A program made the position numbers and the translations under genes. A stretch of DNA of 64,000 nt, taken from positions 4,954,001 to 5,018,000 of the forward strand of contig NZ_LR594671.1 in assembly GCF_901827185.1 (NCBI RefSeq), given 5' to 3'. This document shows, piece after piece, positions 7,612 through 22,015 of the stretch. Source of the DNA: Variovorax sp. PBL-E5. Its GTDB lineage: Bacteria > Pseudomonadota > Gammaproteobacteria > Burkholderiales > Burkholderiaceae_C. The notes beneath the pieces were generated by a model. That model saw only the letters and a list, made by a program, of their open reading frames with translations, was not told the origin of the DNA and searched no databases. Numbering within the stretch: position 1 is the first letter of the stretch; each line of letters starts with the position of its first letter.

Positions 7612-8142
7612 TTGATCGGAACGCACATCCACCCTGCCGTGGCAGTCTTCTCGGGCAAGTCGAAGCAGCACATCCTCGCTGACGGGGGGACGCAGTCCTG
7701 GCGCCTGGTTCCACGCCACGCCGCCAAGCATGAATACGTCGTCTGCTGCCGGTCGGGCATAAGTTGGGCCGAAGGACCTGAAGCTAGAGGTACCGCATTC
7801 CTGGTCGGTCGCATTGGCGGGATCATTAAAGCAACAGACCCCGATGCGCCAGAGCGCTTTCTCATTCTCATGAGCGAGTACGCAGAAGTCGATGTGCCCG
7901 GCGCTTGGAGAGGTTGGCGTAATCCCGTGAAGTACACCACCCTAGAGGAACTGGGAATCGATTTCTCAACGCTGATGTTTCAACCAATGCCGGTGGTTGA
8001 TCAACCGACGTCATCAAGCTCGCCAAGAAGGACTCACGCTGATAACGCACCGCTCAGTCTCACGATCGCGCAGGCGAAGCTCGCACTAGCGACCCACTAC
8101 GGGGTCGCGGAAGAATGCGTCGAGATCACCATTCGCGGCTGA
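7612..8142 (+). CDS. Hypothetical protein, defence island
   Basis: 176 aa if the TTG at 7612 is used. A GTG at 7639 would begin with AVFSGKSKQHILADGG and may be the true start, because 7612 has no ribosome-binding site and lies only ten bases after a TATAAT box. Visible features are an N-terminal FSGKSKQHILADGGTQSW block, a compact mixed alpha/beta middle, a Ser/Pro-rich linker (residues ~130-145), and a C-terminal block LTIAQAKLALATHYGVAEECVEITIRG-like helix/strand. No catalytic motif is evident. It is followed after 30 bp by the 187-aa gene, so the two are probably co-transcribed. Confidence 0.5.
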   Translation: MIGTHIHPAVAVFSGKSKQHILADGGTQSWRLVPRHAAKHEYVVCCRSGISWAEGPEARGTAFLVGRIGGIIKATDPDAPERFLILMSEYAEVDVPGAWRGWRNPVKYTTLEELGIDFSTLMFQPMPVVDQPTSSSSPRRTHADNAPLSLTIAQAKLALATHYGVAEECVEITIRG

Positions 8143-8172
8143 CTGGCGGCGTATCACTTTAAGGAACCCCAG

Positions 8173-8736
8173 ATGAAGTATGAGAACACCATCAAAAAGA
8201 TCAGGGATGGCCGGATGACCCGCACCGAACTCAGAGACGTGCGCGAGAAGGCGCTCGCCAAGAAGAAAACGGGCGACTCAGATTCTCATGAAGTGCTGCA
8301 GGCGATCGATCATGCCGTCGCCCAGGACGCGAGCATGATCTTCATGGGCTTCTGCCCTAACGCCGAGATTGCTAACCGGTTGGACACGGCGTGGAAGACT
8401 CATGGAGTGTGTACGTTCGACTTCGATGAAAGCGTCGTCCAGATGGAGACGTTTCGGAACATCTGCGCAGGCGACCTCCTCGTCCTCAAGAAGGTCGAAA
8501 AGTTCGGCAAAACGATGCGCCTCTATGGCCATGGTCGTGTCAAGGCTGCGAAGGAGGGTAATGACGGACGACGCTACCTTGAAATGCAGTGGTCGCCTCA
8601 GGAGCGAGTGATCGAAGTGCCGCTGATCGGCTGCCAGTCCACTGTGAATCTTCGAAGCATGGAGAGCGTAGAGGCAGCAATGCCCGAGGAGTTCTTCAAA
8701 TGGCTGAAAGAGGCTGAACCGGCATTGCAGGCATGA
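8173..8736 (+). CDS. Hypothetical protein with possible PUA/EVE-like fold
   Basis: 187 aa, starting at an ATG after AAGGA. The first ~50 residues are basic and helical (IKKIRDGRMTRTELRDVREKALAKKK). The rest, with MIFMGFCPNAEIANRLD and AGDLLVLKKVEKFGKTMRLYGHGRV, has the 'GDhhhhKK...G.G.V' rhythm seen in PUA/EVE-type beta barrels that read modified bases. That assignment is a guess from pattern and not a recognised family hit. Its place next to a DNA phosphorothioation locus makes a modified-DNA reader an attractive idea. No signal peptide or membrane segment. Confidence 0.45.
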   Translation: MKYENTIKKIRDGRMTRTELRDVREKALAKKKTGDSDSHEVLQAIDHAVAQDASMIFMGFCPNAEIANRLDTAWKTHGVCTFDFDESVVQMETFRNICAGDLLVLKKVEKFGKTMRLYGHGRVKAAKEGNDGRRYLEMQWSPQERVIEVPLIGCQSTVNLRSMESVEAAMPEEFFKWLKEAEPALQA

Positions 8737-8983
8737 CGCGAGCTTGCTGCCGATTCGGTGGAATCGCGCCAACACCAAAACCTGGCTGCAACTTGCGTCA
8801 GGTCGTGCCACAAGGTGTTCGGGACCCAGTCCATTCGCGTAAGGCAAATCTCCCCGCCCCGACGACCCGGGGATCATCGTCAACAGCCAAGCAACATCAG
8901 TGGACGCAGCCGAGCCCTGCACATTGGGACATTGAACTCCGCGTGTGAGACACTTGCGCAAAACATGCTGAGGGGATGGCCTT

Positions 8984-9517
8984 ATGGCGCAGAGGCAACC
9001 AATCTTCACACACGAGGAAGTCAAGCTCTTTTTTTACGAGCTAAGCGCGAAGTTTCGCGACGGCGTGCGATCGCCCGACGCCTTCCTTTATGTCGTATTC
9101 ACGTTGGTCGGCGTGGGCTGGGCGACATTGGCAATTCCTAAGATCAACAGCAGCCACACCAGCCCGGAAACCGTGGGCGTCTATGTGATCGGCATTCTGG
9201 TGACTGTGCTCCTCGACGGCATGCTCACCTGGAAATCGAAGGGGGGGGACAACAAGTACGGGCATGCCATCGCCGTTCTTTGCATGTGCGTATCCTTGTT
9301 ATTGATTGTCGTAGTGAGCTATTTCTCCGCAAACAAGAGTCCGCCCACAGCTCCAGGTGGGGAGCCGATCTGGAAAGCATGTTCCTACCCAGTCCTGTGC
9401 GCTAGTTTTGTCCTTTCAGTCTTGATGGCGCTCGTGTTGGCAGGCTTTGAGGCGGGCCCTCCTGCGGTAGGCCCGCTTGACCGCTCTTTAAACGCGGTGG
9501 AGGACGGAAATGCCTGA
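8984..9517 (+). CDS. Four-helix membrane protein coupled to a DGQHR protein
   Basis: 177 aa. A cytosolic N-terminus (~35 residues) is followed by four hydrophobic segments: about FLYVVFTLVGVGWATLAI, VGVYVIGILVTVLLDGML, AIAVLCMCVSLLLIVVVSYF and VLCASFVLSVLMALVLAGF. No known family recognised. GAGGGG precedes the ATG by 9 bases. Its end overlaps the start of the DGQHR gene by 8 bp, so the two are translationally coupled and likely act together. The gap before it (8737-8983) holds no gene I can support. Confidence 0.55.
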   Translation: MAQRQPIFTHEEVKLFFYELSAKFRDGVRSPDAFLYVVFTLVGVGWATLAIPKINSSHTSPETVGVYVIGILVTVLLDGMLTWKSKGGDNKYGHAIAVLCMCVSLLLIVVVSYFSANKSPPTAPGGEPIWKACSYPVLCASFVLSVLMALVLAGFEAGPPAVGPLDRSLNAVEDGNA

Positions 9518-10745
9518 CGTCAAACCATTTCTTTCACTCCCCGCAGTCGTTGTTCGGCAGCCCGTGGGAGAGTTCTACTTGTGTTCAATCCCCGCGGGGG
9601 CCCTTCGCGAGATTTCGTACTCGATTCCCGCGAGCATGCGGCGAGAGCAAGGTATGTTTTCGAAGATGCTAGGCAATCAGCGCGTTCGCTCGATTCCGCG
9701 CGCGAAGCAGATCGGGGCATACATTGACGAGGAAGGTTCGACCTTCCCGAACACCATCATCCTTAGTGCTAACTTTGACGAGGACGGTAACTACGTGGAG
9801 GACCCTCTGGCGCGATGGCACGCAACGAGCGCGAAGGATGGCTGCTTGCGGTTAACGATCCCCACTTCTCGACGCCTTGCTTCCATCATTGATGGTCAAC
9901 ACCGCCTCGAAGGCTTCGGATTTGCGACGAAAGACGGCCGGCAGGAAATGGACTTGCCATGCGCAGTCTTCGTCAACTTACCCCGGCCTTATCAGGCGAG
10001 AATCTTCGCGACGATCAATATCAACCAAAAGAAGGTAGATAAGAGCCTTGCGTACGAGTTGTTCGGCTACGACCTGAACGAGTCCGACGCGAATAAGTGG
10101 CCGCCAGACATGCTCGGTGTTTATTTTGCGCGCGTGCTGGAAGGGCGACCAGATTCCCCGTTCCAGGGCCATATTAAGCTCGCTCTGTTGGACGAGGACG
10201 AAGATGCAGCGCCCGTCCCGGAAGGACATCCTTGGTCTGTCTCTGTGGCTTGCATTGTCGAAGGCGTGACAAAGCTCATTTCCGAGAGGCCAATAGCCGA
10301 CCGCAGCGCGCTGGCAAGCGGGAAAGCGAAAACAAGGCGCGAGCTTCTAGCTGACAGGGCACCTCTTCGCGAGCTGTATCGTAAGCAGCAAGACAAGCGC
10401 CTTCTCAGCGCGATAAGCGAATACTTCGCTGTTGTCGACGACCTGATTTGGGCGAAGCAACCCTCCGCCAGCTTTGCATGGCGAACCGTCGGCGTGTTGG
10501 CGTTGTTCGACGTTCTGCGGGAAGGACTCATTGAGGGGAGACTCAATCCGAGCGACATGGAGGCGTCGGCACGGCTGTTCCTGCAAGGCGCCGCGAAGAT
10601 CAATTTTGCGGACGACTTTTTCCACGCGTCAGGCGCGGGCCGGGTTCGGATACGGAAAGTTCTTCGGGTCCTGGTCGGCTTGGAGCAAACGCCCGATGAG
10701 GATGTGAAAGACGCGGTACGCAGATTGAAAGCCCGGGCGCGTTAG
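9510..10745 (+). CDS. DGQHR domain protein (DndB-related, second copy)
   Basis: 411 aa. The hallmark DGQHR lies at residues 128-132 in SIIDGQHRLEGFGF, followed by FVNLPRPYQARIFATININQKKV. This ParB/sulfiredoxin-like core is the one found in DndB and related phosphorothioation-associated proteins. It is distinct from the dndB at 20906-22015: the two share the motif and little else by eye, and this copy is ~40 residues longer. DndB homologues bind DNA, and at least one represses its own operon. Whether this copy has a regulatory role or belongs to an effector complex with the overlapping membrane protein is unknown. Confidence 0.75.
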   Translation: MPDVKPFLSLPAVVVRQPVGEFYLCSIPAGALREISYSIPASMRREQGMFSKMLGNQRVRSIPRAKQIGAYIDEEGSTFPNTIILSANFDEDGNYVEDPLARWHATSAKDGCLRLTIPTSRRLASIIDGQHRLEGFGFATKDGRQEMDLPCAVFVNLPRPYQARIFATININQKKVDKSLAYELFGYDLNESDANKWPPDMLGVYFARVLEGRPDSPFQGHIKLALLDEDEDAAPVPEGHPWSVSVACIVEGVTKLISERPIADRSALASGKAKTRRELLADRAPLRELYRKQQDKRLLSAISEYFAVVDDLIWAKQPSASFAWRTVGVLALFDVLREGLIEGRLNPSDMEASARLFLQGAAKINFADDFFHASGAGRVRIRKVLRVLVGLEQTPDEDVKDAVRRLKARAR

Positions 10746-10888
10746 CGACTCAGCACACGGGTTACGACTGCGCCGTGCGCCGCTAAGCGGCTGCAGAAAA
10801 GTCGTACGTGTCAAAGGATCCTCGCAGGGTTTTCTCGACATATTCTGTGGCGCAAGTTAACATCTGCTGACAGGCGCGAGAGGAGGCC

Positions 10889-10933
10889 ATGCGCTGCTAT
10901 GTCGCTGTGCGTCGTCATTTATTCATTGTTTGA
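10889..10933 (+). CDS. Possible 14-codon leader ORF
   Basis: A perfect AGGAGG (10881-10886) sits two bases before an ATG at 10889, which opens a 14-codon frame rich in Arg and Val and ending at TGA 10931-10933. The larger gene starts at 10899 in another frame, 12 bases from the same AGGAGG. Either the AGGAGG serves the larger gene with a long spacer, or a leader peptide is translated first. I cannot decide. Confidence 0.25.
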   Translation: MRCYVAVRRHLFIV

Positions 10934-12392
10934 GGGCGAGCTGCGACTGGATCGCTTCACGAAGGTGGACGATGTGTCGCAGGCGCTTGACCGCCTGTTC
11001 GCGCGGCCTGGTGGTCGCGTCGCCATCGATCTGGCATTCGACCCCCTACCCTCAAATGTCATCAGCGGCCTTCTAGGTAACGCCGAATGCCGGGTATGTG
11101 CGTCCGAACGGGTCATTCCACTTCTCGCAGAAAGCATCGTTTCGGATACGTCGGAGGCCGGCCTGGTCGGCCACGTCAAGTTCTATGCAGCCTTTCCTGC
11201 ACCACAGTCTCGAGAAGGTCGCTCACTCAACGGCCGCGAAAGTGGGACTGGCTGGCTGGCGTCCCTGTCCGTTTCCGACCGAGAGCTGCAAAGGCAGCTG
11301 GTAGCCGTGGGCATTGGCGACGAACGGTCTTATCAGGCGAATGAGCATCTACTTCCCCCGCACCTTCGAGTCGCAGCCGCGAGGACGCGTTATATGCAGC
11401 TCGCCGGCGCCCCGCCGGATCCGGTTGAAATCCTGGACAACCTGAACGCATGTCCTCCCTGGGTGGTTGGAGCCCGATTGAAAGATCTGCCACTCTCCGT
11501 TCGCCAGGCGAACGTGTTGCGCGCCTACTCGCTAAGAACGGTCGGCGAAGTGTCACGATTCGGGAATTCAGGACTTCTTAAGCTTCCAAACCTTGGACTC
11601 AAGTCCGTGAGAGAGCTTGGCGTAACAATCTACGAGCTCATGCTGCGCGAGCCGGCCATTGGATCATCTACGATCGGTGCGCTCAATGGCTTGGCGATTG
11701 AGATTCCGCTCCCGCATGCTGATGGCTCCTTCATTGAAATGCTTCGCGACGAGTTACGCGGGTATGGTGGCATCGCCGAAGTCGTTCTCTTGGAACGTTG
11801 GGGCCTTCTCGGCGAGCGAAGTACGCTGCAGCAGCTGGCAGAAAAGCATGGGTTGACGCGCGAAAGAATCCGGCAGATCGAGGTGAAGACCGCCGAGCGG
11901 TTGCGAGGCGCAGGCGTTTGGGTGACCTTTTCGCAGCACGTTGACGGCTTGTTAGATTCACGCGAGACGCCACTCTGGATGGATCGATTGCCAGCTGAAG
12001 ATCCTTGGTTTGGCGATGACGCGTGGCTGACGCATGGACTGGCGACTTGCATCGAACTCTTCCTAGGCCCCAGGTTTCATCTAGTCGAGATCAAGCAAAG
12101 GCCTGCCGTTTCGGCGCTTGCACCAACCGAATGGAGACGCATCATCGAGGACTGCAAGCTGATATTGGGCCCCGAGCTTTCCCACGACGAAGATCGCGTC
12201 TGGCGACTTGCCGCCGCGGTGCTGGTCGAGAAGGGAAGTGAACTTCGCGGCGAATTGGTCAGTCACCTCACAGTTCCATCCGAAACCGACAGTGAGGCAG
12301 AGCTGCCCGCAGTAGATCCCGACGTCGCGCTGTCTCGACAACTCGAACGGGCGTTGTTAGAACAAACCCTTTTGCGAATTGCCGAGTCGTGA
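10899..12392 (+). CDS. Fusion of RNA polymerase alpha-CTD-like and sigma-70 region 4-like domains
   Basis: 497 aa. Residues ~196-247 (LPLSVRQANVLRAYSLRTVGE..., LLKLPNLGLKSVREL) reproduce the helix-hairpin-helix core of the RNA polymerase alpha C-terminal domain. Residues ~298-337 (ERWGLLGERSTLQQLAEKHG, LTRERIRQIE) are a textbook sigma-70 region 4 helix-turn-helix. The N-terminal ~190 residues and C-terminal ~160 are unassigned. No sigma region 2 is present, so it is not a complete sigma factor. It heads a tight operon with a helicase/nuclease and an SMC-like ATPase, so it may be a DNA-recognition subunit or a regulator contacting RNA polymerase. Confidence 0.7.
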   Translation: MSLCVVIYSLFEGELRLDRFTKVDDVSQALDRLFARPGGRVAIDLAFDPLPSNVISGLLGNAECRVCASERVIPLLAESIVSDTSEAGLVGHVKFYAAFPAPQSREGRSLNGRESGTGWLASLSVSDRELQRQLVAVGIGDERSYQANEHLLPPHLRVAAARTRYMQLAGAPPDPVEILDNLNACPPWVVGARLKDLPLSVRQANVLRAYSLRTVGEVSRFGNSGLLKLPNLGLKSVRELGVTIYELMLREPAIGSSTIGALNGLAIEIPLPHADGSFIEMLRDELRGYGGIAEVVLLERWGLLGERSTLQQLAEKHGLTRERIRQIEVKTAERLRGAGVWVTFSQHVDGLLDSRETPLWMDRLPAEDPWFGDDAWLTHGLATCIELFLGPRFHLVEIKQRPAVSALAPTEWRRIIEDCKLILGPELSHDEDRVWRLAAAVLVEKGSELRGELVSHLTVPSETDSEAELPAVDPDVALSRQLERALLEQTLLRIAES

Positions 12393-12393
12393 T

Positions 12394-14340
12394 GTGACTA
12401 ACGAACAGCTGCGTTCGCTCAAGGCCATCTACAAGACCCGCGATGGGTCGATTGGGGCTTCATTCTTCGCCCCGTGCCTGGGGCTGTGCACTCACTACAA
12501 GCGAGCAGCCGGTTTTTTTTCTTCAACAGCCCTGGTGTCTTGGGCCGACGCACTCCTGGCGAACGGTACAAAATCCGTCGCAATCAGTCTGCTTATTTCT
12601 CCGACCCTGTCGTCCGGCGACAAGGCAACCTTTGAGAGGGCCACCGACCCGGCTGCTCGCGCCGACATCCTTACCCGGTGCGGGGATTCCCTTGTTCACG
12701 AACTCCTCAATGATCCCGCTTGCGGCAAGACGAGAGGCAACTACCTACTGTGGTTACTTGCCACTGGAAAGCTTGAGATTCGGTTTGCACTTCCGCAGCA
12801 TGTGGACGAACCGGGCATGTACCACCAAAAGAGCGGCGTGTTCGTTTTCCCGGACGGCGCAAGAGTCGCCTTCGAAGGTTCGGCCAATGAAACGGCATCA
12901 GGCTATATCCGCAACTACGAGAAGATTCATGTGTTCCGTAGCTGGATCCCCGAGGACGTGAGTCGGCTTGTCTCTGTCGAGGCTGACTTCGACGAGCAGT
13001 GGAACCAGCAGGACGAGTACCTGACCGTCGTTCCGCTATCCAGCGAATCACTCCGCCTAATCAAGGAGCGCTCCGCCGATCTCGACTTCGACAACCCGCC
13101 GCCGGCTCGCGTGCCCGCGGAAGATCCCAAGTGGCGGCACCAGGGCGACGCTGCCCGAGCATTCATCGCCGCCAGGAGAGGCGTCCTAGAGATGGCGACG
13201 GGCACCGGGAAGACCAAGACTGCTCTTCGAATCGCAAAGGAACTTTTTGCGCGAGGCGAGATTGATTCGATCATCGTGTGCACAGAGGGCACGGACCTGC
13301 TGCAGCAGTGGTATGAAGAGATTCTCGACTGGCGCGCGTCGCTGGAGAGACCGTTGCGCGTATACCGCCATTTCGCGAGCGACCATCAGGGCATGACATT
13401 TGCGCTGAACTGCGCATCATCTGCCCTCGTCGTGTCTCGCGGGCAGTTGGGGAAATTTCTTCCCATGCTGAAGGACGCGCAAGCCGCACGAACGCTCGTC
13501 ATTCAGGATGAAGTTCATGGGCTAGGAGCGCCCTCCAATCGGACTAGCTTGGGCGGGAAGCACCAGCGGCACCGCTATGTTCTAGGTCTCTCCGCGACTC
13601 CCGAGCGCGAGTACGATGCGGAAGGGACGGCGTTCATTGATGCGGAGATTGGCCCAACAGTCTTTTCGTTTGGACTCGAGGATGCGATCAAGCGCGGCAT
13701 CTTGGTCGAGTTCGACTATGTGCCGTTGCCGTATGAGCTGACGGCGAATGACCGGGAAAGGCTGAAGGCTGTCTACGCGCGGCAGTCTGCTCGCGCACAC
13801 TCTGGCCAGCCGATGTCCAATGAGGAGCTTTGGACTGAGCTCTCAAAGGTCTATAAGACCGCCGAGCAGAAGCCCGGCATCTTTGCCGACTATCTGGCGA
13901 CCCATTCCGGCATAGTCCTCGGATGCATTTTGTTTGTCGAGGAGCGCGAGTACGGGGAGCGAATTCTTCCCATCCTTCACGCTACCGGGGTCCGGTATCG
14001 CACGTACTATGCGGATGACGATCGAGAGAACTTGGTGATGTTCGGTCGCGGGGAAATCGACTGTGTGTTGACATGCCATAAGATTTCCCAGGGCATCGAC
14101 ATCAAGAGTCTCATGGCTGTCGTGCTGTTCGCTTCTGCGAAGGCTCGGCTTGAGACAATCCAACGCGTGGGACGCTGTCTGCGGAGCGATCCTGCCAACC
14201 CCGATAAGCGAGCCACCGTAGTTGATTTCGTCCTTGAAGCTGAAGAAGAAAATCCGAGGCGCGGGCCATCGGCTGACGAGCAGCGGCGCGATTGGCTCAC
14301 TGAGTTATCACAGGTTAGGAGGGAGAAAAATGCCAATTGA
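12394..14340 (+). CDS. PLD-nuclease / DEAD-DEAH (SF2) helicase, phosphorothioation-linked restriction candidate
   Basis: 648 aa from GTG 12394 (a TTG at 12379 is the longer option; the upstream gene stops at 12392). The N-terminal ~230 residues carry a phospholipase D-type nuclease signature: H144-x-K146 in MYHQKSG, then FEGSAN. A full SF2 helicase follows: Walker A MATGTGKTKTAL (~267), DEVH box, SATPE motif III and motif VI QRVGRCLR. Helicases of this type occur beside dnd genes, and a protein family named for a phosphorothioation-system restriction enzyme is, as I recall it, of this kind. The likely role is DNA translocation and cleavage of unmodified DNA. Confidence 0.8.
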   Translation: MTNEQLRSLKAIYKTRDGSIGASFFAPCLGLCTHYKRAAGFFSSTALVSWADALLANGTKSVAISLLISPTLSSGDKATFERATDPAARADILTRCGDSLVHELLNDPACGKTRGNYLLWLLATGKLEIRFALPQHVDEPGMYHQKSGVFVFPDGARVAFEGSANETASGYIRNYEKIHVFRSWIPEDVSRLVSVEADFDEQWNQQDEYLTVVPLSSESLRLIKERSADLDFDNPPPARVPAEDPKWRHQGDAARAFIAARRGVLEMATGTGKTKTALRIAKELFARGEIDSIIVCTEGTDLLQQWYEEILDWRASLERPLRVYRHFASDHQGMTFALNCASSALVVSRGQLGKFLPMLKDAQAARTLVIQDEVHGLGAPSNRTSLGGKHQRHRYVLGLSATPEREYDAEGTAFIDAEIGPTVFSFGLEDAIKRGILVEFDYVPLPYELTANDRERLKAVYARQSARAHSGQPMSNEELWTELSKVYKTAEQKPGIFADYLATHSGIVLGCILFVEEREYGERILPILHATGVRYRTYYADDDRENLVMFGRGEIDCVLTCHKISQGIDIKSLMAVVLFASAKARLETIQRVGRCLRSDPANPDKRATVVDFVLEAEEENPRRGPSADEQRRDWLTELSQVRREKNAN

Positions 14341-14524
14341 TACTGAGCTGCGTGAGGCAGTCCACCAAGCCGTCATCCAACACCAGCAACCGCTCGAGGT
14401 GGAGCGCCAGCTGATAGCGCTCCTCACGGAACTAAGCGAACAGGATGTGACTGACGATCGTCGGATGCAGCGGATTAGCATCTTGCAGTCGGAGATCAGC
14501 ATCGCAAAAGCGCTCGGGCAATAG
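14330..14524 (+). CDS. 64-aa small protein between helicase and SMC-like ATPase
   Basis: The ATG at 14330 overlaps the last 11 bases of the helicase gene and is preceded by a strong GGTTAGGAGGG ribosome-binding site; the stop at 14524 is one base before the next ATG. The 64-aa product is acidic and wholly helical, with TELREAVHQAVIQHQQPLEV near the start and RMQRISILQSEIS near the end. No family recognised. The coupling and strong ribosome-binding site suggest a stoichiometric subunit, perhaps bridging the helicase and the ATPase. Confidence 0.6.
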   Translation: MPIDTELREAVHQAVIQHQQPLEVERQLIALLTELSEQDVTDDRRMQRISILQSEISIAKALGQ

Positions 14525-14525
14525 C

Positions 14526-16529
14526 ATGGAGATCAAACTGCTTGGCTGGACCTGCGAGGGATTCCGCTGCCCAGACATGGAGGTCGACCTTCGCAAGGGC
14601 AGCGCCGTGCCGCGAGTTGCGTTGGTCCAGATGCCGAATGGAACAGGCAAGACCACCACTCTAGTTCTCTTGAAGGGAACGTTGACTGGCGAAGCGCGGA
14701 ATTGGACGTCCAAGTACATTGCGGGTCTTCGCAGTACAAGCAAGCCGGACAGCGGCGCCTTCTCGGTGTCTCTCACCGTGGATGGGCGACCGTTGAAGCT
14801 TGAAATGACCTGCGACTTTGAGCTGGGTGAGGTTTCGTTCAACACGACATCACCGGAAGTCGGTGGCTTCAACCGGGGATGGACGCCCCCTCCGGCCGTG
14901 CGCCGATTCCTTGCTCCACGCTTCGTTGATTTGTTTGTGTTTGACGGTGAACTCGCAAACACGCTTCTCGACCCTCATGCCACCAAGGCCGAGGAGGCTA
15001 TCGAAACGCTTTGTCAGCTTGATCTGCTTGATTCGTTGGCGAACGACTGCGAGCAGTTCTGGCGGCTCAACACTGCGAAGGCCGGCGCCCGCCATCAAAC
15101 GGGTCTAGCGCGATACACAACGATCGCTGGACGGCTGAACGAACGCATCCAGATTCTTCGCAAGAACATTGACCAGCGTGAGACCAAACTTGGTCAGGTG
15201 AACGCCGAAGTGGAGCGATTGAACACCGAAATCCAGAAGCTCGTCGACCAGGACGGGAAAAACCGGGAGACCTATTACCAGAAGAAGGCTTCGAAGGCAG
15301 AAGCAGAGCAGGCTCTCTCGGGCGCGGTCCGAGAGTTGATGGACAAGATGAGGCGTCCAGAGTCGTTGGCTCCTGCGTTCGGGCAGGCACTTAAGACCCT
15401 GAAGGCCAATCTGGACGTCGCCAAGTTGCCAGACAGCACGTCAAGGCAGTTCTTTCAGGAACTGGCTCTGAAACCCGAATGCATTTGCGGCAGGCCGGTC
15501 GGAGAGAAAGAGCGGCTCCATATTCTCTCCAGTGCAGAGGACTTCTTGGGCGAGGAGCTTGCCGGCGTTCTGAATGCTTTCAAGCAGGAAGTAGACATCA
15601 TCGACTCCGATGAGCGCCAGAGAGTGCTCGATGCGTTGCTCACAGCGATCGAGCAAATTCGCCTCCGGATTGCCGATCTCGAGGCTGAAATGGCGGTTCT
15701 GGAGAAGTCCAGCGTTAGTGCCGCTGGCGGAGATCCCGAAGAGTTCAGGCGCCAGCTCGAGCCGCTCAATGTCGAGAAGGCGAATCTTGAACGGGAACTT
15801 GACCTTTTAAGAGCGCCTATTGAGCCAGGCGAAAGCAGCGAGCTCATTACTTCCCCGACTGATGCCATCAAAATAACGAAGCTTGCTGTCGCCGAGAAGC
15901 AGCTTCGCATGGCCAACGACGAGATCAATCGGATCAACGGAACGCTTGAACTACGAATGCGCCTCGACCTGCTCAAACAGGTCTGCACGGACGCACGAGG
16001 CCTTGCGAAGCAGCGGATCAAGGACGGGCTACTCGACAAATGCAATCAACGACTGCGTCGCATTCTCAAGGGTGATCCGCTCGAGATCCAACGCATTGAC
16101 AGGTCACTTGTCTTGAAGGACCGGGAGTCGGGCAGTGCAGGACAGAACCTGGCCGTCGGCTATACCTTTCTTGCCGAAGCATTAAGCAAGGGCAGCCACG
16201 ACTTCCCACTGGTCGTCGACAGCCCAGCGGGCCCCCTTGACCATGGCGTGCGGCGCCAGATTGCGACGATGGTCCCTGCTCTGTGTACCCAGTTCGTCGC
16301 ATTCACCATCTCGACCGAGCGAGAGGCATTTCTTGAGCCGCTCGAAGCAAGCGCGGGCGGTGACGTCAAGTACATCACCGTCTTCCGGAATACACCAGGC
16401 AATGCATCGCTAGTCAACGACCTGCCCGCGGACCATACGGACAATGGGCAGTCATTCGTCGTCGGCGGGCGCGATTACTTCGTGCGATTCGCCCTCGAAA
16501 ACGAGAATGACGAAGCGGGGGGCAGCTGA
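14526..16529 (+). CDS. SMC/Rad50-like AAA ATPase, second DndD-like protein
   Basis: 667 aa. Walker A PNGTGKTTTL is at 37-46, long coiled coils run at ~185-270 and ~330-480, and a single CICG centre at ~320 resembles half of a Rad50-type zinc hook. The C-terminal lobe has an SAGQNLAVGYTFL signature and Walker B FPLVVDSPAGPLD. Such proteins clamp or remodel DNA. It is separate from the DndD at 17404-19422, so this locus encodes two ABC-type SMC-like ATPases. Its position between the 64-aa gene and the 151-aa gene, with one-base spacing or overlap, indicates a multi-subunit complex with the helicase. Confidence 0.75.
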   Translation: MEIKLLGWTCEGFRCPDMEVDLRKGSAVPRVALVQMPNGTGKTTTLVLLKGTLTGEARNWTSKYIAGLRSTSKPDSGAFSVSLTVDGRPLKLEMTCDFELGEVSFNTTSPEVGGFNRGWTPPPAVRRFLAPRFVDLFVFDGELANTLLDPHATKAEEAIETLCQLDLLDSLANDCEQFWRLNTAKAGARHQTGLARYTTIAGRLNERIQILRKNIDQRETKLGQVNAEVERLNTEIQKLVDQDGKNRETYYQKKASKAEAEQALSGAVRELMDKMRRPESLAPAFGQALKTLKANLDVAKLPDSTSRQFFQELALKPECICGRPVGEKERLHILSSAEDFLGEELAGVLNAFKQEVDIIDSDERQRVLDALLTAIEQIRLRIADLEAEMAVLEKSSVSAAGGDPEEFRRQLEPLNVEKANLERELDLLRAPIEPGESSELITSPTDAIKITKLAVAEKQLRMANDEINRINGTLELRMRLDLLKQVCTDARGLAKQRIKDGLLDKCNQRLRRILKGDPLEIQRIDRSLVLKDRESGSAGQNLAVGYTFLAEALSKGSHDFPLVVDSPAGPLDHGVRRQIATMVPALCTQFVAFTISTEREAFLEPLEASAGGDVKYITVFRNTPGNASLVNDLPADHTDNGQSFVVGGRDYFVRFALENENDEAGGS

Positions 16530-16984
16530 TGGCTTTCAAAATGCGTTCCGAGGTCGACGAGTGGTTCGCGAAGATCCACAAGGTCAAAGATACGCCTTTG
16601 CCCAACAAGTTTGACTACTACTATCTGTGCCTGATGTTCGGACTTACCAAGCGAAAGGCGGCAAGCCTCTCGGGAGGGATTGAGTTCATTCCTTACTTCA
16701 TCGCCGACTACAAACCCGTCCAAAACCTGATCTTGGGTCTGCTGGTTGTTGCAGAGGCAGAGGTGCAGGGAATTGATCTAAGCAACCGGGCGGCGATCAA
16801 GAAGCTATTGACCTTGTACCTGAGCCCCGAAGCCTCGGTGGCGCTGACTCCCCAAGGCTTCGATCGGATGAATGACTACGCAAATGGCGGATTTAATGCG
16901 ATCGTCGCTTCGTATCCGGAAGCGCCTTGGGTAGCAGCCGACTTCTTGCAGTGGTATGCCAGGGAGATCAAAGGCGTGTCATAG
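16529..16984 (+). CDS. Hypothetical protein, last gene of the helicase operon
   Basis: 151 aa; its ATG overlaps the stop of the SMC-like gene by one base. It begins KMRSEVDEWFAKIHKVKDTP and has a largely helical sequence with PNKFDYYYLCLMFGLTKRKA and a C-terminus rich in aromatic residues (VAADFLQWYAREIKG). I do not recognise the family. The opening 'hxxhxxhhxKhx...NKFDhYYhChhhGh' pattern loosely recalls DndE in size and position after a DndD-like gene, so it may be its functional counterpart in this operon. That is inference. Confidence 0.55.
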   Translation: MAFKMRSEVDEWFAKIHKVKDTPLPNKFDYYYLCLMFGLTKRKAASLSGGIEFIPYFIADYKPVQNLILGLLVVAEAEVQGIDLSNRAAIKKLLTLYLSPEASVALTPQGFDRMNDYANGGFNAIVASYPEAPWVAADFLQWYAREIKGVS

Positions 16985-17066
16985 GCGGACTCCCCGCAAT
17001 TTCCACCTGTCGACGCGCATTGCTTATGCCCGAAGCGATCTAGCATGTGAAATGCGGCCGCCTGAG

Positions 17067-17414
17067 CTACACCGCGTGATCCACCAGCTCCACAACGGAT
17101 TTGGCCTTCATGAGCCCTGTTAGACCGTCGTCAATGTGGCTCGCGATCACTTGACTCAAAGTCTTTCCGTCTAGTGGGCCGTGAACTTGAACAAGTAGCG
17201 CTTCGAAAACGTTGGCGTGCTCTCCGAACAGGGTGGTGCCAATGAACTCGCTTCCATTCTGTTCCACCTTCTTCTTGCCTGCGCGGGGACCCTCCCGAAG
17301 GGAGCGAATCAGCGCGATGCGACAAACGATGTTGGGCGTCAGCCCGGTGCGCCCCTTCAAGATCTTTAGCTTGTCAGTCGCGGCCTGCGAGATATGCATG
17401 CGCTTAGGCAACAT
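17067..17414 (-). CDS. dndE: DNA phosphorothioation protein DndE
   Basis: 115 aa from ATG 17412-17414, preceded by AAGGAGGT, and overlapping the 3' end of dndD by 11 bp. It starts MLPKRMHISQAATDKLKILK and continues TGLTPNIVCRIALIRSL, the characteristic DndE N-terminus. Known DndE is a small helical protein that forms a tetramer, binds nicked DNA and is required for sulfur insertion into the DNA backbone with DndC and DndD. The basic AGKKKVEQNG stretch may contact DNA. A longer in-frame start at 17480 lies inside dndD and is unlikely. The gene faces the helicase operon tail to tail across 82 bp. Confidence 0.85.
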   Translation of the reverse strand: MLPKRMHISQAATDKLKILKGRTGLTPNIVCRIALIRSLREGPRAGKKKVEQNGSEFIGTTLFGEHANVFEALLVQVHGPLDGKTLSQVIASHIDDGLTGLMKAKSVVELVDHAV

Positions 17415-19422
17415 TCGCGACCTCCTTGCTCTTCCAGAAGTAGCCCTCTTCCATCGTCGTGCTCCTCTCGACGGAGTCAAAGTTCAAATGGAATGCGTGT
17501 GAAACGCTTGACTTGAGGCCGTCATAGAACCGCTGGTCCACTTCAGTGTCCGTCGAAAGCACGATGACCTGGTGACTCGCCCGAGGGAAATAGGCCTCCA
17601 CAAGCTTCTCCCGATGCTTGCTATCGAGCCGGCCGAGCGGTGTGTCGATGATGATCGGCAGGCTTCGTCCCGACGCCTTTCCCAAAGCCTCCAGCATTGA
17701 AATCGCGAAGATTTGCTTTTCCCCGGCCGAGAGGCGCGCTTTGGGAATCTCATTGCCCTGCTGATCAAGCAACCTCACCACAAACGTCGACTCGTCGATC
17801 GCTGCGTCCGCGATCATGTCGTCCTTGCGGGAGAGCCTTTGAAAGGCGGCCAGGAAATGCCGACGAAGCTCCTGGCACTTACGATGTCCAGCTCGCTGCT
17901 TGAATTCGCCGAGGACTTCCTGAACACTCTCAGCCAAGTAGTCCGCCCGCAGTGTGATCCCGTCCACCTGCGAATCCTTTTCAAGCTTCCTCTTCTTCCT
18001 CGTGATATCAATCGCTTGCCAGAGCTTACGCCGGATCTCCTGCAACACCTCCTGCTTTCTGGCTTCCAGCCGATTGACGACCTCCATGGATTCTTCCAAC
18101 GCTCGGAACGCTTCCTGAATGGATTCATCAGACGGCGCATGCGCCAACCTGTCCTGTTCTTGGGCCTCCTGCTCTGACAACTGTTTGAGGCCCTTCTGCA
18201 ACTCGGCGAGCTGGTGCTCCACCATGGGAACAGTCGCCGTAAGCGTGTTCAGCAATTTGTCCGCTTCGCTTCCAGTGAGCCCGTGAATGATCTTCGAAGG
18301 CGCTTCTGGTGGCGCACACACTTCTCGCACCCATTCGTCGATTGATCGGTTCACCACTGGGCGCCATCCACTTGATCCTTTGACCGCGACCAACCGCTTC
18401 TTCAACTGGTCCACCGACGACTTGATGGAGCCGGAAATAGCCTTGGCTTCCAGCGCCTTCCGCTCTGACAGGACGGTGCTGACCAAATGTTGCCGCAGCT
18501 CCCCGGCAAACATGAAAACGCCCGGACCCGAAAGGAGTTCGCGGATTTGCTCGTCCCGGCTGGCGCGGTCTTCCTGAATGCCTTTGAGCCTCGCCTCCAC
18601 CTGAGTTCGATTGATAGCCCAAGCGCCTCCCCGATCGGACAGCTTTGACCGCATCCGCTCCTTGGCGGCAATTGCCTGGTCGAGCTGAGGCTGCAAGGCC
18701 TGCTGCATTTCCGCTTGGGCCTTGTCGATCTCGGATATCAGTTGGTCGTAGGCCTCGTGAAGTGAACGCAACTTTGTCCGCACATCGTCGGGGGTACTGG
18801 CCGCTCGTCGGGCCCGGACGAACGAGGTCAAGTCGGCTGCCAGTCGGTCCGCTATGTCAAGTCCGAGCAGGCGCCGAATGGCGTCGCTGAGCACTTCGTC
18901 AGCATCGTCTCGAGCTAGATCGGCAATCTGCTCGCCGTCAAAGAAGAAGAATTGCGAAATGCCGGATGGAATCAGTTGCGAGAGAAAGCCTTGAGCTTGG
19001 TCGTCTACCAACCAAGGCTCATCGACTTCGTTCTTGAATAGGCGCAAGGACTCTTGAACCGAACTTCCCTTGCCCACCCAAACGCGCTGAACCCTGTATC
19101 GAAGAGTCTCGCCCAATCGTGCGTAGCTGAAAACAAGCTCGACCGACGCGCGATCCGCGGCGACCAGCTGCGTTGGCGACGCATGAATCAACTGCGCCAG
19201 GATGGCCGCGTACTCCTTCTCTGTCAGGGGCAGGTCGAAACCTTGTCGGCCATACAAGGCTAGGCGGACAGCCTTCAGAATCGTTGTTTTCCCCGCGCCA
19301 TTCAACCCACCAAAGAGTACGATGGTCCGTTTGGAACCGTACTTCGTGCGCGGGGCAAGGTCGAAGGAATGACTACCTCTATAAGTGCCGAAGTCGTTGA
19401 GGATGAGCCGCTCAATTAGCAT
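17404..19422 (-). CDS. dndD: DNA phosphorothioation ATPase DndD
   Basis: 672 aa. The N-terminus MLIERLILNDFGTYRG and Walker A GGLNGAGKTTILKAVRLALYG (38-58) are typical of DndD. FFFFDGEQIADLARD follows at ~150-165, then a coiled-coil centre, the ABC signature LSAGEKQIFAISMLEAL and Walker B LPIIIDTPLGRLD. DndD is an SMC-like ATPase that nicks or opens DNA for phosphorothioation and pairs with DndC. The start overlaps the end of dndC by 11 bp, and dndE starts inside its end: a coupled dndBCDE order. Confidence 0.93.
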   Translation of the reverse strand: MLIERLILNDFGTYRGSHSFDLAPRTKYGSKRTIVLFGGLNGAGKTTILKAVRLALYGRQGFDLPLTEKEYAAILAQLIHASPTQLVAADRASVELVFSYARLGETLRYRVQRVWVGKGSSVQESLRLFKNEVDEPWLVDDQAQGFLSQLIPSGISQFFFFDGEQIADLARDDADEVLSDAIRRLLGLDIADRLAADLTSFVRARRAASTPDDVRTKLRSLHEAYDQLISEIDKAQAEMQQALQPQLDQAIAAKERMRSKLSDRGGAWAINRTQVEARLKGIQEDRASRDEQIRELLSGPGVFMFAGELRQHLVSTVLSERKALEAKAISGSIKSSVDQLKKRLVAVKGSSGWRPVVNRSIDEWVREVCAPPEAPSKIIHGLTGSEADKLLNTLTATVPMVEHQLAELQKGLKQLSEQEAQEQDRLAHAPSDESIQEAFRALEESMEVVNRLEARKQEVLQEIRRKLWQAIDITRKKRKLEKDSQVDGITLRADYLAESVQEVLGEFKQRAGHRKCQELRRHFLAAFQRLSRKDDMIADAAIDESTFVVRLLDQQGNEIPKARLSAGEKQIFAISMLEALGKASGRSLPIIIDTPLGRLDSKHREKLVEAYFPRASHQVIVLSTDTEVDQRFYDGLKSSVSHAFHLNFDSVERSTTMEEGYFWKSKEVANVA

Positions 19423-20902
19423 CGCCGATCACCTTCCCAATGTCGGCGTAACGCTTCTGTAAGTCTCTCTCCTGGTCATCGTAGCTGCTGACCCGATTGA
19501 TCCAATCCGTTTGTGAGGCGATGGCTTGCTTGTCGTCCGCCCAGTCTCGTGAGAGCAGGTCCTGCAGCTCCTTCTGCAAGCCCGACCTTCGTGCGTGCCC
19601 TTGGTAGGAGACCTCAAGCTCAAGCAGCTTCATCAGCAGCTCCTTGGGCAGTCGCCTTTCCGAGCAGAGTTCAGCCACTACATTCGCGTCGTTCCCGTCA
19701 AAGACAAAGTCGTCGTCGGTTTTCCATGCAACGTCATTCGAAAACACCTGCCGATAGATGGCCGGCACCGAGTCTTCCCAGTCCGGCTCGTTCGGGTCGA
19801 GTCGCCATTCCTTGCGAATCTGCTCAAGTTCCGCCAGGCTAATGAGCTGTTCAGCATCCTCGGGATTCAAGTCGTAAATGGCTTTCTGAGTGGCCAGCAG
19901 CTCTTTCAGCAGATGCTTGCGATACTCCATTCGATAGGGCCCCAGTACGTGCTTTTCCTGCACCGTCTTGCCTTGCTCGTCCTTCTTGATGGAAATCGTC
20001 ACCGAACCATCGCGTCGCCTTGCGCTGCGGAATTCGTGCTTTCGAGCGGGATCGGTCGTTCGGTAGAGCTCGTTCCGGAAATCACGCAATGGCGTCAACC
20101 AGGTATTGCCAGTTTCGATCAATCCGTCCATTGCGCGGTCCTTGGTCACGACCGTGCATACCCAGCATCCGAACCTTGAGTTTCCGCAGGATGGCGTGGA
20201 CGTGTCGAGAACCAATGGGCACTCCCCCCCGTTCGACCCCTTATACAAATCAAACAGGGCTTGGTGATCACCGCCCCAGGGTGCCGGCCCGGAGAAGAGA
20301 TATTCCCACACGTCGTCAGCGCTCCACTCATCGATAGGGGTGAACACCAAGGCGTGGGGCAGACTCGTGTGTTTGCCAAGCCGCGAGCCGTCGATTCGAT
20401 GCTTACGCATCACCTGGGCACGTGACGAGCTCTCCTGGAGGCGGGACCCGAGAACTACGACCACCTCACCAAACGCTGCAACCTTCTCCCGAATGAACTC
20501 GCTAGTCGGATCAATTTTCATCCGTTCGGTGCACCAACGGAATTGGCGGGTCGGAGCGGGATAGCCCTTGCCAATCAAGTTGACCCAGAATGTCTCGTCG
20601 ATTTGGGGTGTCACCGGACTGGCAACTTCGATCGGAAGCGCCAATTCACTCGCCGCGAGTCGCATCTTGTCCAATGCATCATGGATCAAGTTGACCACCA
20701 GCGGCGTTTCGACCAATGTGTCTGAAGAGACAATAAATACCGGCTTGGTTCTCTCCAAAAGTGGGAGCTCCAGCAACGCCTCGAACACCAGTCGACAGAC
20801 AGCTGTGGAGTCCTTTCCACCACTGAAGCCGATCACCCATGGGCGGTTGTCCGCCTTGTAGATGGTAAGGATATCTTCCTTACTTGTTATCACGCATTCC
20901 AT
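19412..20902 (-). CDS. dndC: DNA phosphorothioation sulfurtransferase DndC
   Basis: 496 aa, the usual DndC length. The PP-loop pyrophosphatase motif SGGKDST is at 27-33 in NRPWVIGFSGGKDSTAVCRL. A cysteine cluster SCGNSRFGCWVC (~250-262) would hold the 4Fe-4S cluster. DndC activates DNA or sulfur with ATP, in the manner of PAPS reductase, and receives sulfur from a cysteine desulfurase. No dndA lies in the window, so a chromosomal IscS-like desulfurase must serve if the system works. It starts 3 bp after dndB ends. Confidence 0.93.
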   Translation of the reverse strand: MECVITSKEDILTIYKADNRPWVIGFSGGKDSTAVCRLVFEALLELPLLERTKPVFIVSSDTLVETPLVVNLIHDALDKMRLAASELALPIEVASPVTPQIDETFWVNLIGKGYPAPTRQFRWCTERMKIDPTSEFIREKVAAFGEVVVVLGSRLQESSSRAQVMRKHRIDGSRLGKHTSLPHALVFTPIDEWSADDVWEYLFSGPAPWGGDHQALFDLYKGSNGGECPLVLDTSTPSCGNSRFGCWVCTVVTKDRAMDGLIETGNTWLTPLRDFRNELYRTTDPARKHEFRSARRRDGSVTISIKKDEQGKTVQEKHVLGPYRMEYRKHLLKELLATQKAIYDLNPEDAEQLISLAELEQIRKEWRLDPNEPDWEDSVPAIYRQVFSNDVAWKTDDDFVFDGNDANVVAELCSERRLPKELLMKLLELEVSYQGHARRSGLQKELQDLLSRDWADDKQAIASQTDWINRVSSYDDQERDLQKRYADIGKVIGDAN

Positions 20903-20905
20903 CGA

Positions 20906-22015
20906 TTACCTTTTAGATGTGAGCCGCTTCTTTGCAGGCAAGAGGGCTTCGAGCTCGAGATCTTCTGGCGACAGTGGTAGCCCCAGAACGGACTTCACGT
21001 AGTTTGCCGCCAGATGGACGTTGGTCGCAGCTTTGCTAATCCTTCCGTGCACCATGGCGCGCCCCTCCCAAATCCCGATATTGGATCGCGACCAGTCGAT
21101 CTTGCGCAGATAACGCAGGTCAGTTTTCCATTGCTTCGGTCGCCTTGATAGGAGTTCTGCGCCGGCATATGCGAGAGCCTGCAAGGCGACACCATGCGCG
21201 TGAACATACTCTTGGCGAAGTTCCGCCGTGGCAACGTCTTTTGTGCGAGCCCGCTGCCAGTCCGGTATTTGATCGCTGACCTCATCCCAATACTCTTTCG
21301 CGACCATGCGGTCCGTCGAGCTGAACTCGTCCCTCGGATGCTTTCGGAGCAGTGCCCGGCTCGCGTGCTTGATGCTGCTCAGGGTGAATAGCTTGACGGA
21401 GCGGTTGGAAATCGTCGATTTCTCCATCTCCGTCAAGCCTCTGAATGCCCTGCATTCGGACGCGAGGTATCGAGCAAGCTCCGAACTGGGATCGCGATGG
21501 TCATACAGAGTTGATAACGAATAGCTCGGACGAACGGCGTATTTGTTGAGATCCGCGAACATCTGCTGACTGCGGAGCAACCCATCATCGCCAAAGAACA
21601 AGACGGGGACGTTGTCCTGGCCTAGTGCCGGACTCTCCTTGAGCGCTTCCTCGATGGCCGCGCGCCGATGTTGTCCATCGTTGATCAGGATTCGCGCGTC
21701 CATCGGAATCTCCAGGACACCGATCGAAAGATTTCGGCCGGCGTCGAGTGGAGCGAATCTCACTTGCCCGTCTACCGAGGCGGTCAACGCTGAAAGAATA
21801 TACGTTTCAGGGTTCGCAACCAGGTATTGGGCGATCGCGGGGATGCGATTCTTGTTGAGCGAGCGTTGGGCGCGCAGCTCCGCTGGCACCTCCTCCTCAT
21901 CGAACATGAATAGCTTCGGGATCATGCGAAGCGGGCACATGGCGATGAAAAAGGGGCGCTTCCCCTGAAAGCCCTGCACGGCCGGGAAGCTGTGGAAGTA
22001 CCCTTGATCGTCCAT
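20906..22015 (-). CDS. dndB: DndB, DGQHR-domain regulator of phosphorothioation
   Basis: 369 aa with DGQHR at 113-117 in ILINDGQHRRAAIEEAL, and RNLSIGVLEIPMDA just before it. DndB is not essential for the modification; in a studied enterobacterial system it represses the operon and alters modification frequency. It is the first gene of dndBCDE. The promoter region directly upstream contains a palindrome across the -10 box, as expected for self-repression. Compared with the DGQHR protein at 9510-10745 it is shorter and lacks the FATININQKKV block. Confidence 0.9.
   Translation of the reverse strand: MDDQGYFHSFPAVQGFQGKRPFFIAMCPLRMIPKLFMFDEEEVPAELRAQRSLNKNRIPAIAQYLVANPETYILSALTASVDGQVRFAPLDAGRNLSIGVLEIPMDARILINDGQHRRAAIEEALKESPALGQDNVPVLFFGDDGLLRSQQMFADLNKYAVRPSYSLSTLYDHRDPSSELARYLASECRAFRGLTEMEKSTISNRSVKLFTLSSIKHASRALLRKHPRDEFSSTDRMVAKEYWDEVSDQIPDWQRARTKDVATAELRQEYVHAHGVALQALAYAGAELLSRRPKQWKTDLRYLRKIDWSRSNIGIWEGRAMVHGRISKAATNVHLAANYVKSVLGLPLSPEDLELEALLPAKKRLTSKR

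Follow-up and report, generated by a model that had tools for sequence, protein, structure and literature searches.

What does a set of DNA phosphorothioate (PT) genes do without a desulfurase gene of its own, facing an operon headed by a sigma-factor-like protein? The question is raised by a locus at positions 8,984 to 22,015 of a 64,000-nucleotide stretch of the Variovorax sp. PBL-E5 genome (contig NZ_LR594671.1, positions 4,954,001 to 5,018,000; the whole stretch is "the window" below), in which minus-strand dndB-C-D-E genes converge on a plus-strand five-gene operon. The first gene of the operon encodes a fusion of an alpha-CTD and sigma-70 region 4, here called SIG, and upstream of it lie genes for a membrane protein and a DGQHR-domain protein (DGQHR_1). 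Judged by their sequences, the other four operon genes are PbeABCD, a known system. A bacterial PT-based antiviral Dnd–Pbe system is thus known; the SIG companion and the pairing of the membrane protein with DGQHR_1 are new, as far as the literature searched goes. We propose a two-layer PT defence locus, probably mobile, with SIG as an extra DNA-recognition subunit, and give this whole proposal a probability of roughly 0.6. Its core, PT marking by Dnd together with PT-dependent exclusion by Pbe, is very probable, and for SIG a recognition role is the one we lean towards.

The Dnd module and its missing partners

A check of the window recovered every open reading frame (ORF) named in an original prediction, which had been made from the DNA sequence alone, including the convergent operon (10899-16984) and a membrane protein gene that overlaps the DGQHR gene, by 8 bp. 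The dndB-C-D-E set (22015-17067) is complete, as had been claimed: each of the four proteins exceeds the cut-off of its curated model, the reading frames are intact, and the set looks ordinary in sequence. DndC-type cysteine residues ligate an iron-sulfur cluster.

The prediction that the window encodes no cysteine desulfurase was borne out. A NifS-family profile matched four places in the genome (7.09 Mb), none of them inside the window, and no linked dndA was found. One of the four is the host IscS (C1:2028483), which scored 682 bits against TIGR02006 (cut-off 643.2). In two Rhizobium relatives described below, dndA lies between pbeD and dndE, and its absence here could mean that the Variovorax locus is a non-functional remnant. 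We consider this very improbable, as all frames are open, the catalytic motifs are kept and the host has an IscS; in Salmonella and Escherichia coli JM109, DndBCDE obtains its sulfur from IscS (PMC11662687). The IscS-DndBCDE-DndI system of that study likewise has dndBCDE without dndA, but its effector is a DUF262-HNH protein, not Pbe.

The claimed absence of DndF, DndG, DndH and SspE agrees with the searches made. Neither TIGR03238 (DptF), which matched the annotated dptF of a control record, nor TIGR03237, which we take to be DptH and which had no positive control, had a match in the genome; DptG was not searched for. No GmrSD domain, as in SspE, was found among the 20 window proteins run through Pfam, and no genome-wide SspE search was made.

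The facing operon encodes PbeABCD

The operon had been described as possibly largely undescribed, and this part of the prediction has to be given up. A PADLOC match for PbeA, the CxC motif of PbeC, the predicted fold of PbeD and the PbeABCD systems in print (PMC6459918, PMC10853773) together rule out an undescribed five-gene system. The genes follow the order A-B-C-D with overlaps, as expected for the single predicted operon: SIG and pbeA overlap by 14 bp, pbeA and pbeB by 11 bp, and pbeC and pbeD by 1 bp, while pbeB and pbeC are 1 bp apart (from coordinates, with an ATG chosen for pbeB).

In PbeA, residues H149, K151, S168 and N170 and those of the helicase motifs are invariant in 10 of 10 aligned sequences. 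It scored 21.7 against Pfam PLDc_2 alone, under the cut-off of 27, and 155 against TIGR04095, far under the cut-off of 600. The Rhizobium counterpart of the PbeB-slot ORF is annotated as "CxC ATPase DNA modification system associated small protein"; no NCBIfam or PADLOC profile matched the Variovorax protein. PbeC has a Walker A motif at 37, SAGQNL at 537 and VVDSP at 563, and its C319-I-C321 aligns with the CxC of most other PbeC proteins. The exception is the ATPase of a methylase-linked Aurantiacibacter Pbe locus (L010:7277-9262), in which the aligned CxC is absent and a CPTC occurs nearby. The name "SMC-like", used in the original prediction, is a misnomer for such a CxC ABC-ATPase (PMC10853773). 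PbeD has the DndE fold by prediction; Foldseek alone gave it no match at E 0.001 or better, and a profile comparison with DndE returned no result.

That the operon is a defence complex linked to Dnd had been anticipated correctly. In the archaeon Haloterrigena jeotgali, DndCDEA-PbeABCD gives PT-dependent virus exclusion (PMC6459918), and Pbe systems are reported in many bacteria (PMC6459918, PMC10853773), in tandem with DndDE in 936 bacterial taxa (PMC10853773). The H. jeotgali PbeA has PLD, ResIII and Helicase_C domains, the A-B-C-D order adjoins dnd genes in both loci, and the small proteins are of 66 and 152 amino acids (aa) there and 64 and 151 aa here. Unlike that system, the Variovorax locus is bacterial, has DndB but no DndA, is convergent rather than tandem, and adds SIG and the membrane protein/DGQHR_1 pair. 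It also resembles the CxC ABC-ATPase–DndE systems of PMC10853773, with their HKD-SF2 helicase, small protein, CxC ATPase and DndE cognate.

The same arrangement, a SIG-type gene ahead of pbeABCD convergent with dndEDCB, is found on plasmids of Rhizobium sp. NXC14 and R. leguminosarum WSM1689 (L008 and L011), with a PbeA identity of 48%. These loci differ in that dndA is present, SIG is ~750-764 aa long, and a RelA/SpoT-domain gene lies directly upstream of SIG (L008:6421-7506, L011:6419-7504; Pfam check for L008). WSM1689 also has a 172-aa four-helix protein with DGQHR_1, the pair adjoining dndB there. In genome G642 (L036), the order membrane protein - DGQHR_1 - one ORF - SIG - PbeA - PbeB - PbeC - PbeD matches that of the window; dndBCD lie on that contig too, ~24 kb away from SIG.

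These loci bear on the idea that the pbe side is a solitary cassette, brought next to dnd by mobile-element shuffling and working with another mark or none. Of the first 30 Pbe loci, 11 have no dnd or ssp genes in the stretch (one of these being G642, with its distant dnd), and dndCD were near only 42.1% of the 553 pbeAC surveyed in PMC6459918. We nevertheless regard a solitary cassette as unlikely, given the convergent order kept in the Rhizobium plasmids at such PbeA divergence, a PT module (dnd or ssp) in 19 of the 30 loci, and no methylase among the tested window proteins between 8984 and 22015.

Pbe pairs with an Ssp-type PT module too. Genes resembling SspA-D (desulfurase, DUF4007, large ATPase and PAPS-reductase family) adjoin pbe in L024, L026, L040, L086 and L088, the set being partial in the last two; we presume these to be Ssp genes from their domain names. 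A GmrSD_N/GmrSD_C protein, with the domain plan of SspE/DndI, adjoins pbe in three loci without SIG (L009:14506-16344, L037:4435-6309 and L041:11024-12832), and one Lactiplantibacillus plasmid (L050) carries two pbeABCD cassettes with identical protein accessions.

SIG recurs beside pbe

Pbe loci were gathered via PbeA. Among plasmids, 21 records matched with at least 80% cover and 19 were analysed, the two left out both being Lactiplantibacillus. PbeA matches, partials included, occurred in 4 of 399 genomes of the order, 11 of 398 of the phylum, 5 of 399 of the family and 8 of 383 of the class of G642. The 36 readable loci comprise the 19 from plasmids, 9 and then 6 from genomes, the window, and L003, found via SIG. 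Left out were L039 and L017, where the contig ends in or just past pbeA, and L006, L007, L019-L022 and L082, with partial PbeA matches and flanks not included. L088, L038 and L043 were retained even though one flank is truncated by the end of the contig.

SIG adjoins pbe in 11 of the 36 loci (the window, L003, L008, L010, L011, L025, L027, L036, L042, L047 and L087), or in 9 of 34 when the window and L003 are set aside. L087 (G1488:C2) is a decayed pbe-SIG locus in which PbeA, PbeC and SIG are each spread over several short frames; it was kept despite a partial PbeA match because PbeC and SIG pieces follow, and omitting it would lower the counts to 10 of 35 and 8 of 33. L027 was counted on a weak profile score (43 bits), yet both of its Pfam domains are over cut-off. 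SIG lies ahead of pbeA in seven loci and after the pbeD slot in four (L003, L010, L042 and L087). In 10 of the 11, ORF coordinates show SIG either overlapping the adjacent pbe gene or at most 20 bp away; in L087, ~0.5 kb separates the PbeC and SIG pieces.

L010 and L042 have SIG and pbe, no dnd gene in the stretch, and a DNA methylase gene nearby. Thus, SIG follows Pbe rather than PT. Searches in the reverse direction gave similar pairings. The window SIG had one match among 72,556 plasmid records, which bears pbe. A Ruegeria SIG matched 15 records; all 4 with more than 20% cover bear pbe, and the other 11 cover 5-14% only. In the 398 genomes of the phylum sample, full-length SIG was found only in G000 and G642 (544 and 639 bits), both with pbe and both with their rows in the search profile; at most two candidates were scored per genome, so that the search may have passed over weak SIG proteins in other genomes. 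This search gave matches in 390 of the 398 genomes, mostly short stretches around region 4, and we read most of them as RpoD-like.

Close relatives of SIG are rare: of 7,998 scored candidates from a 5.8-billion database, 14 proteins reach E 1e-3 or lower, a number that includes the window SIG itself. The SIG and PbeD match lists share four contig sizes (24588, 25739, 17883 and 356979), which suggests that the matches sit on shared contigs. A scan of genome contigs with SIG gave one locus (L003), and of 19 stretches matched by the SIG profile in viral contigs none was confirmed. Plasmid annotation in five loci labels the SIG-type gene "sigma factor-like helix-turn-helix DNA-binding protein". 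In L003, from a gammaproteobacterial metagenome-assembled genome, an Ion_trans_2 (ion channel) protein (9947-11161) lies between SIG and the dnd genes.

In the open-licence PMC literature searched, including PMC10853773 and PMC12839542 (figures and supplements apart), we found no report of Pbe being accompanied by a separate alpha-CTD/sigma-4 protein. The main text of PMC10853773 names sigma once, for a helix-turn-helix inside DndH.

SIG domains and conservation

Pfam placed an alpha-CTD at residues 187-248 of the window SIG and sigma region 4 near 272-391, and structure comparison concurs, confirming the predicted fusion at the operon head; it is this feature of the original prediction that the literature searched does not mention. 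The N-terminal and C-terminal parts gave no match in the searches made, and Foldseek alone gave none for SIG at E 0.001 or better. Because sigma region 2 is absent from all eight SIG proteins run through Pfam, the window's included, these proteins do not look like ordinary initiating sigma factors. By ORF, SIG proteins range from 437 to 1026 aa, with an extra HARE-HTH in the L003 copy.

In an alignment of 17 SIG rows, which are 17-58% identical to the window SIG, the region 4 recognition helix reads TRER(I/V)RQIE with few changes. R323, R325 and Q326 are present in 17 of 17 rows, E322 in 16 and R321 in 15; R202 and G233 of the alpha-CTD are kept in all 17. The equivalent residues of sigma factors read the -35 box. 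This constraint on the helix argues that SIG probably still reads promoter-like DNA.

MzaA of the MZA system was considered as an identity for SIG and rejected. SIG has no full-length match to it, sharing only the region 4 stretch (26.3 bits against a cut-off of 800; 11.3 bits in PADLOC); the SIG proteins of L025 and L036 scored 43 and 31 bits.

How SIG might serve Pbe

In the mechanism we propose, the gene identities, predicted PbeD fold, SIG domains and recurrence come from this study and PT-dependent exclusion from that of DndCDEA-PbeABCD, whereas we infer every step of SIG and the membrane pair and the working state of this copy. DndC, DndD and DndE would place PT marks on host DNA with sulfur from host IscS, restrained by DndB. 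PbeC (CxC ATPase) and PbeD (DndE fold) would scan DNA, and PbeA (helicase and HKD nuclease), tuned by PbeB, would act on unmarked DNA. SIG, with sigma region 4 and the alpha-CTD reading -35/UP-type promoter DNA, may help Pbe to load onto transcribed DNA entering the cell, or may link Pbe to RNA polymerase.

A narrower version, in which SIG is a promoter-reading targeting subunit and Pbe finds invaders through -35/UP elements or engaged polymerase, is offered tentatively. If true, exclusion would begin at whichever genes of an invading phage or plasmid are most active, with PT marks sparing the host. Published views differ on how Pbe locates and stops invaders: by a replication block (PMC6459918) or by cleavage by PbeA, which PMC10853773 argues must occur. 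The occurrence of SIG beside pbe in distant bacteria, also near a methylase rather than dnd, offers a testable lead on targeting.

Several observations weigh against this proposal. In the archaeal system replication was blocked, viral DNA stayed intact and no cleavage was seen; archaeal pbeABCD without PT was harmless and inactive (PMC6459918). "Restriction of unmodified DNA", as the activity had been predicted, is thus too simple. SIG is missing from 25 of the 36 Pbe loci and, in the last separate genome sample, occurs in one of six, the decayed L087; therefore Pbe can dispense with it. For both Rhizobium loci, the close spacing or overlap with SIG is that of the longest pbeA frame, whereas the start annotated for pbeA lies ~0.2 kb from SIG; in L027 the pbe genes are split. 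Distant SIG members were found largely via region 4, so that conservation of its helix arises partly by selection and the argument from it is weaker than the counts. The SIG group is also loose: the window SIG scores 76-77 bits against L010 and L003 and 18-25 bits against L008, L011 and L025, and L036 (83 bits) and L027 were joined by profile. By sequence, the likeness is thus partly one of shared architecture rather than clear descent.

A regulator built of promoter-binding parts would look identical, and both the alpha-CTD and sigma region 4 are promoter-binding modules. SIG could accordingly bind a local promoter of the dnd or pbe operons, where it would attract RNA polymerase or keep it off and so confine expression of the toxic Pbe to times of need; its position directly ahead of pbeA in the window and six other loci suits such a role. 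The four loci with SIG after the pbeD slot fit it poorly, as do the large size of SIG and the domain added in L003, and we hold regulation to be possible but doubtful. A scan of the window for sigma-70 promoters and terminators found no excess (plain sigma-70 sites, 2 against 4.7 expected); one of the two sites is directly upstream of SIG (10835-10863), and the scan is silent for or against regulation. DNA recognition on behalf of Pbe remains our preferred role for SIG.

The membrane protein and DGQHR_1 accompany PT genes

The original prediction treated the seven plus-strand genes as one unit. For SIG and pbe this holds, even without dnd, but the membrane protein/DGQHR_1 pair goes with PT genes even where pbe is missing. 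A four-helix protein precedes DGQHR_1 in the Pbe loci of G642 (L036), Ruegeria (L025), Pontibrevibacter (L047) and R. leguminosarum (L011), with four hydrophobic segments by hydropathy in each, as in the window. The pair also accompanies FtsK and dndCD-type genes (L089-L091, from Mesorhizobium, R. phaseoli and Aureimonas), dptFGH-dndBCDE (L092, from Aliivibrio, with DGQHR_1 split over two frames) and, in an E. coli record, dndBCDE together with a DptF-like gene (L093). In these five the partner is of similar size, with three segments in L093 and four in the others. Neither Pbe nor SIG turned up in the stretches of L089-L093, which rules out the pair as part of Pbe.

In all, the pair was found in 10 loci and dndC in 10 of 10 (in L036, elsewhere in the genome as above). 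The pair is thus a companion of PT genes in these loci, in line with its NCBIfam name, and we would treat it as a separate accessory of PT systems. The window DGQHR protein matched 41 plasmid records; the count covers the best matches, 8 of these 41. Among the first 30 Pbe loci, 5 of the 10 with SIG had the pair and none of the 20 lacking SIG did (Fisher p 0.0018). We did not find the pair described as a follower of PT genes in the open-licence PMC literature searched. Three modules (PT marking; Pbe with SIG; membrane protein with DGQHR_1) indicate which genes to clone together.

In L089, L090 and L091, the stretch has dndC, a small protein, a DndD-like ATPase and FtsK, and no dndB or DndFGH is annotated there. 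A DGQHR gene in L086 resembled the pair and was rejected, as its neighbour has no membrane segment.

Locus layout and genomic context

The features are collected in Table 1. For DndE, an ATG near the start of its relatives was chosen; the listed ORF extends to 17480. The stops of pbeD and dndE are 82 bp apart.

Table 1. Genes of the Dnd–Pbe–SIG locus, in window positions
Feature	Position	Strand	Basis
Four-helix membrane protein, partner of DGQHR_1	8984..9517	+	Hydropathy, 4 segments
DGQHR protein 1 (DGQHR_1, DndB-like), PT-associated accessory	9510..10745	+	TIGR04172 408.7 bits, under cut-off 450; DGQHR domain 137.9/58.85
SIG, alpha-CTD/sigma-70 region 4 fusion, recurrent pbe companion	10899..12392	+	Pfam domains
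PbeA, HKD (PLD) nuclease and SF2 helicase	12379..14340	+	PADLOC PDLC02703 779 bits, 7e-235, residues 14-625
PbeB-slot small protein, 64 aa	14330..14524	+	Position and size; 28% identity to Rhizobium counterpart
PbeC, CxC-type ABC ATPase	14526..16529	+	CIC 319-321; best PADLOC PbeC 67.3 bits
PbeD, DndE-fold protein, 151 aa	16529..16984	+	Predicted fold
DndE	17067..17414	-	TIGR03184 78.5 bits (cut-off 71.85), PF08870
DndD	17404..19422	-	TIGR03185 540 bits (cut-off 246)
DndC	19412..20902	-	TIGR03183 542 bits (cut-off 290); SGGKDS at 27; Cys 228, 239, 246, 249
DndB	20906..22015	-	TIGR03233 488 bits (cut-off 328); PADLOC DndB 542 bits

The G+C content is 56.7-58.6% in the seven 2-kb bins from 8001 to 22000 and 58.1-67.5% in the 21 bins to the right of the locus, at least 60% in 19 of them. 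Further right in the window, TrbL, TrbE, TraG-type coupling protein and relaxase-type (DUF3363) domains are encoded. These conjugation-type genes and the low G+C make it probable that a conjugative element carries the locus as cargo. Megablast of 9510-22015 against plasmids gave no match.

Two further proteins of the same low-G+C stretch (419 aa, 6243-7502, minus strand; 187 aa, 8173-8736, plus strand) had no Pfam or PADLOC match at E 0.001. Beyond them, an 864-aa protein (3542-6136, minus strand) gives weak, sub-cut-off matches to an HsdR N-terminus and a HEAT repeat and resembles Avs2 faintly; it may be the product of an extra defence gene.

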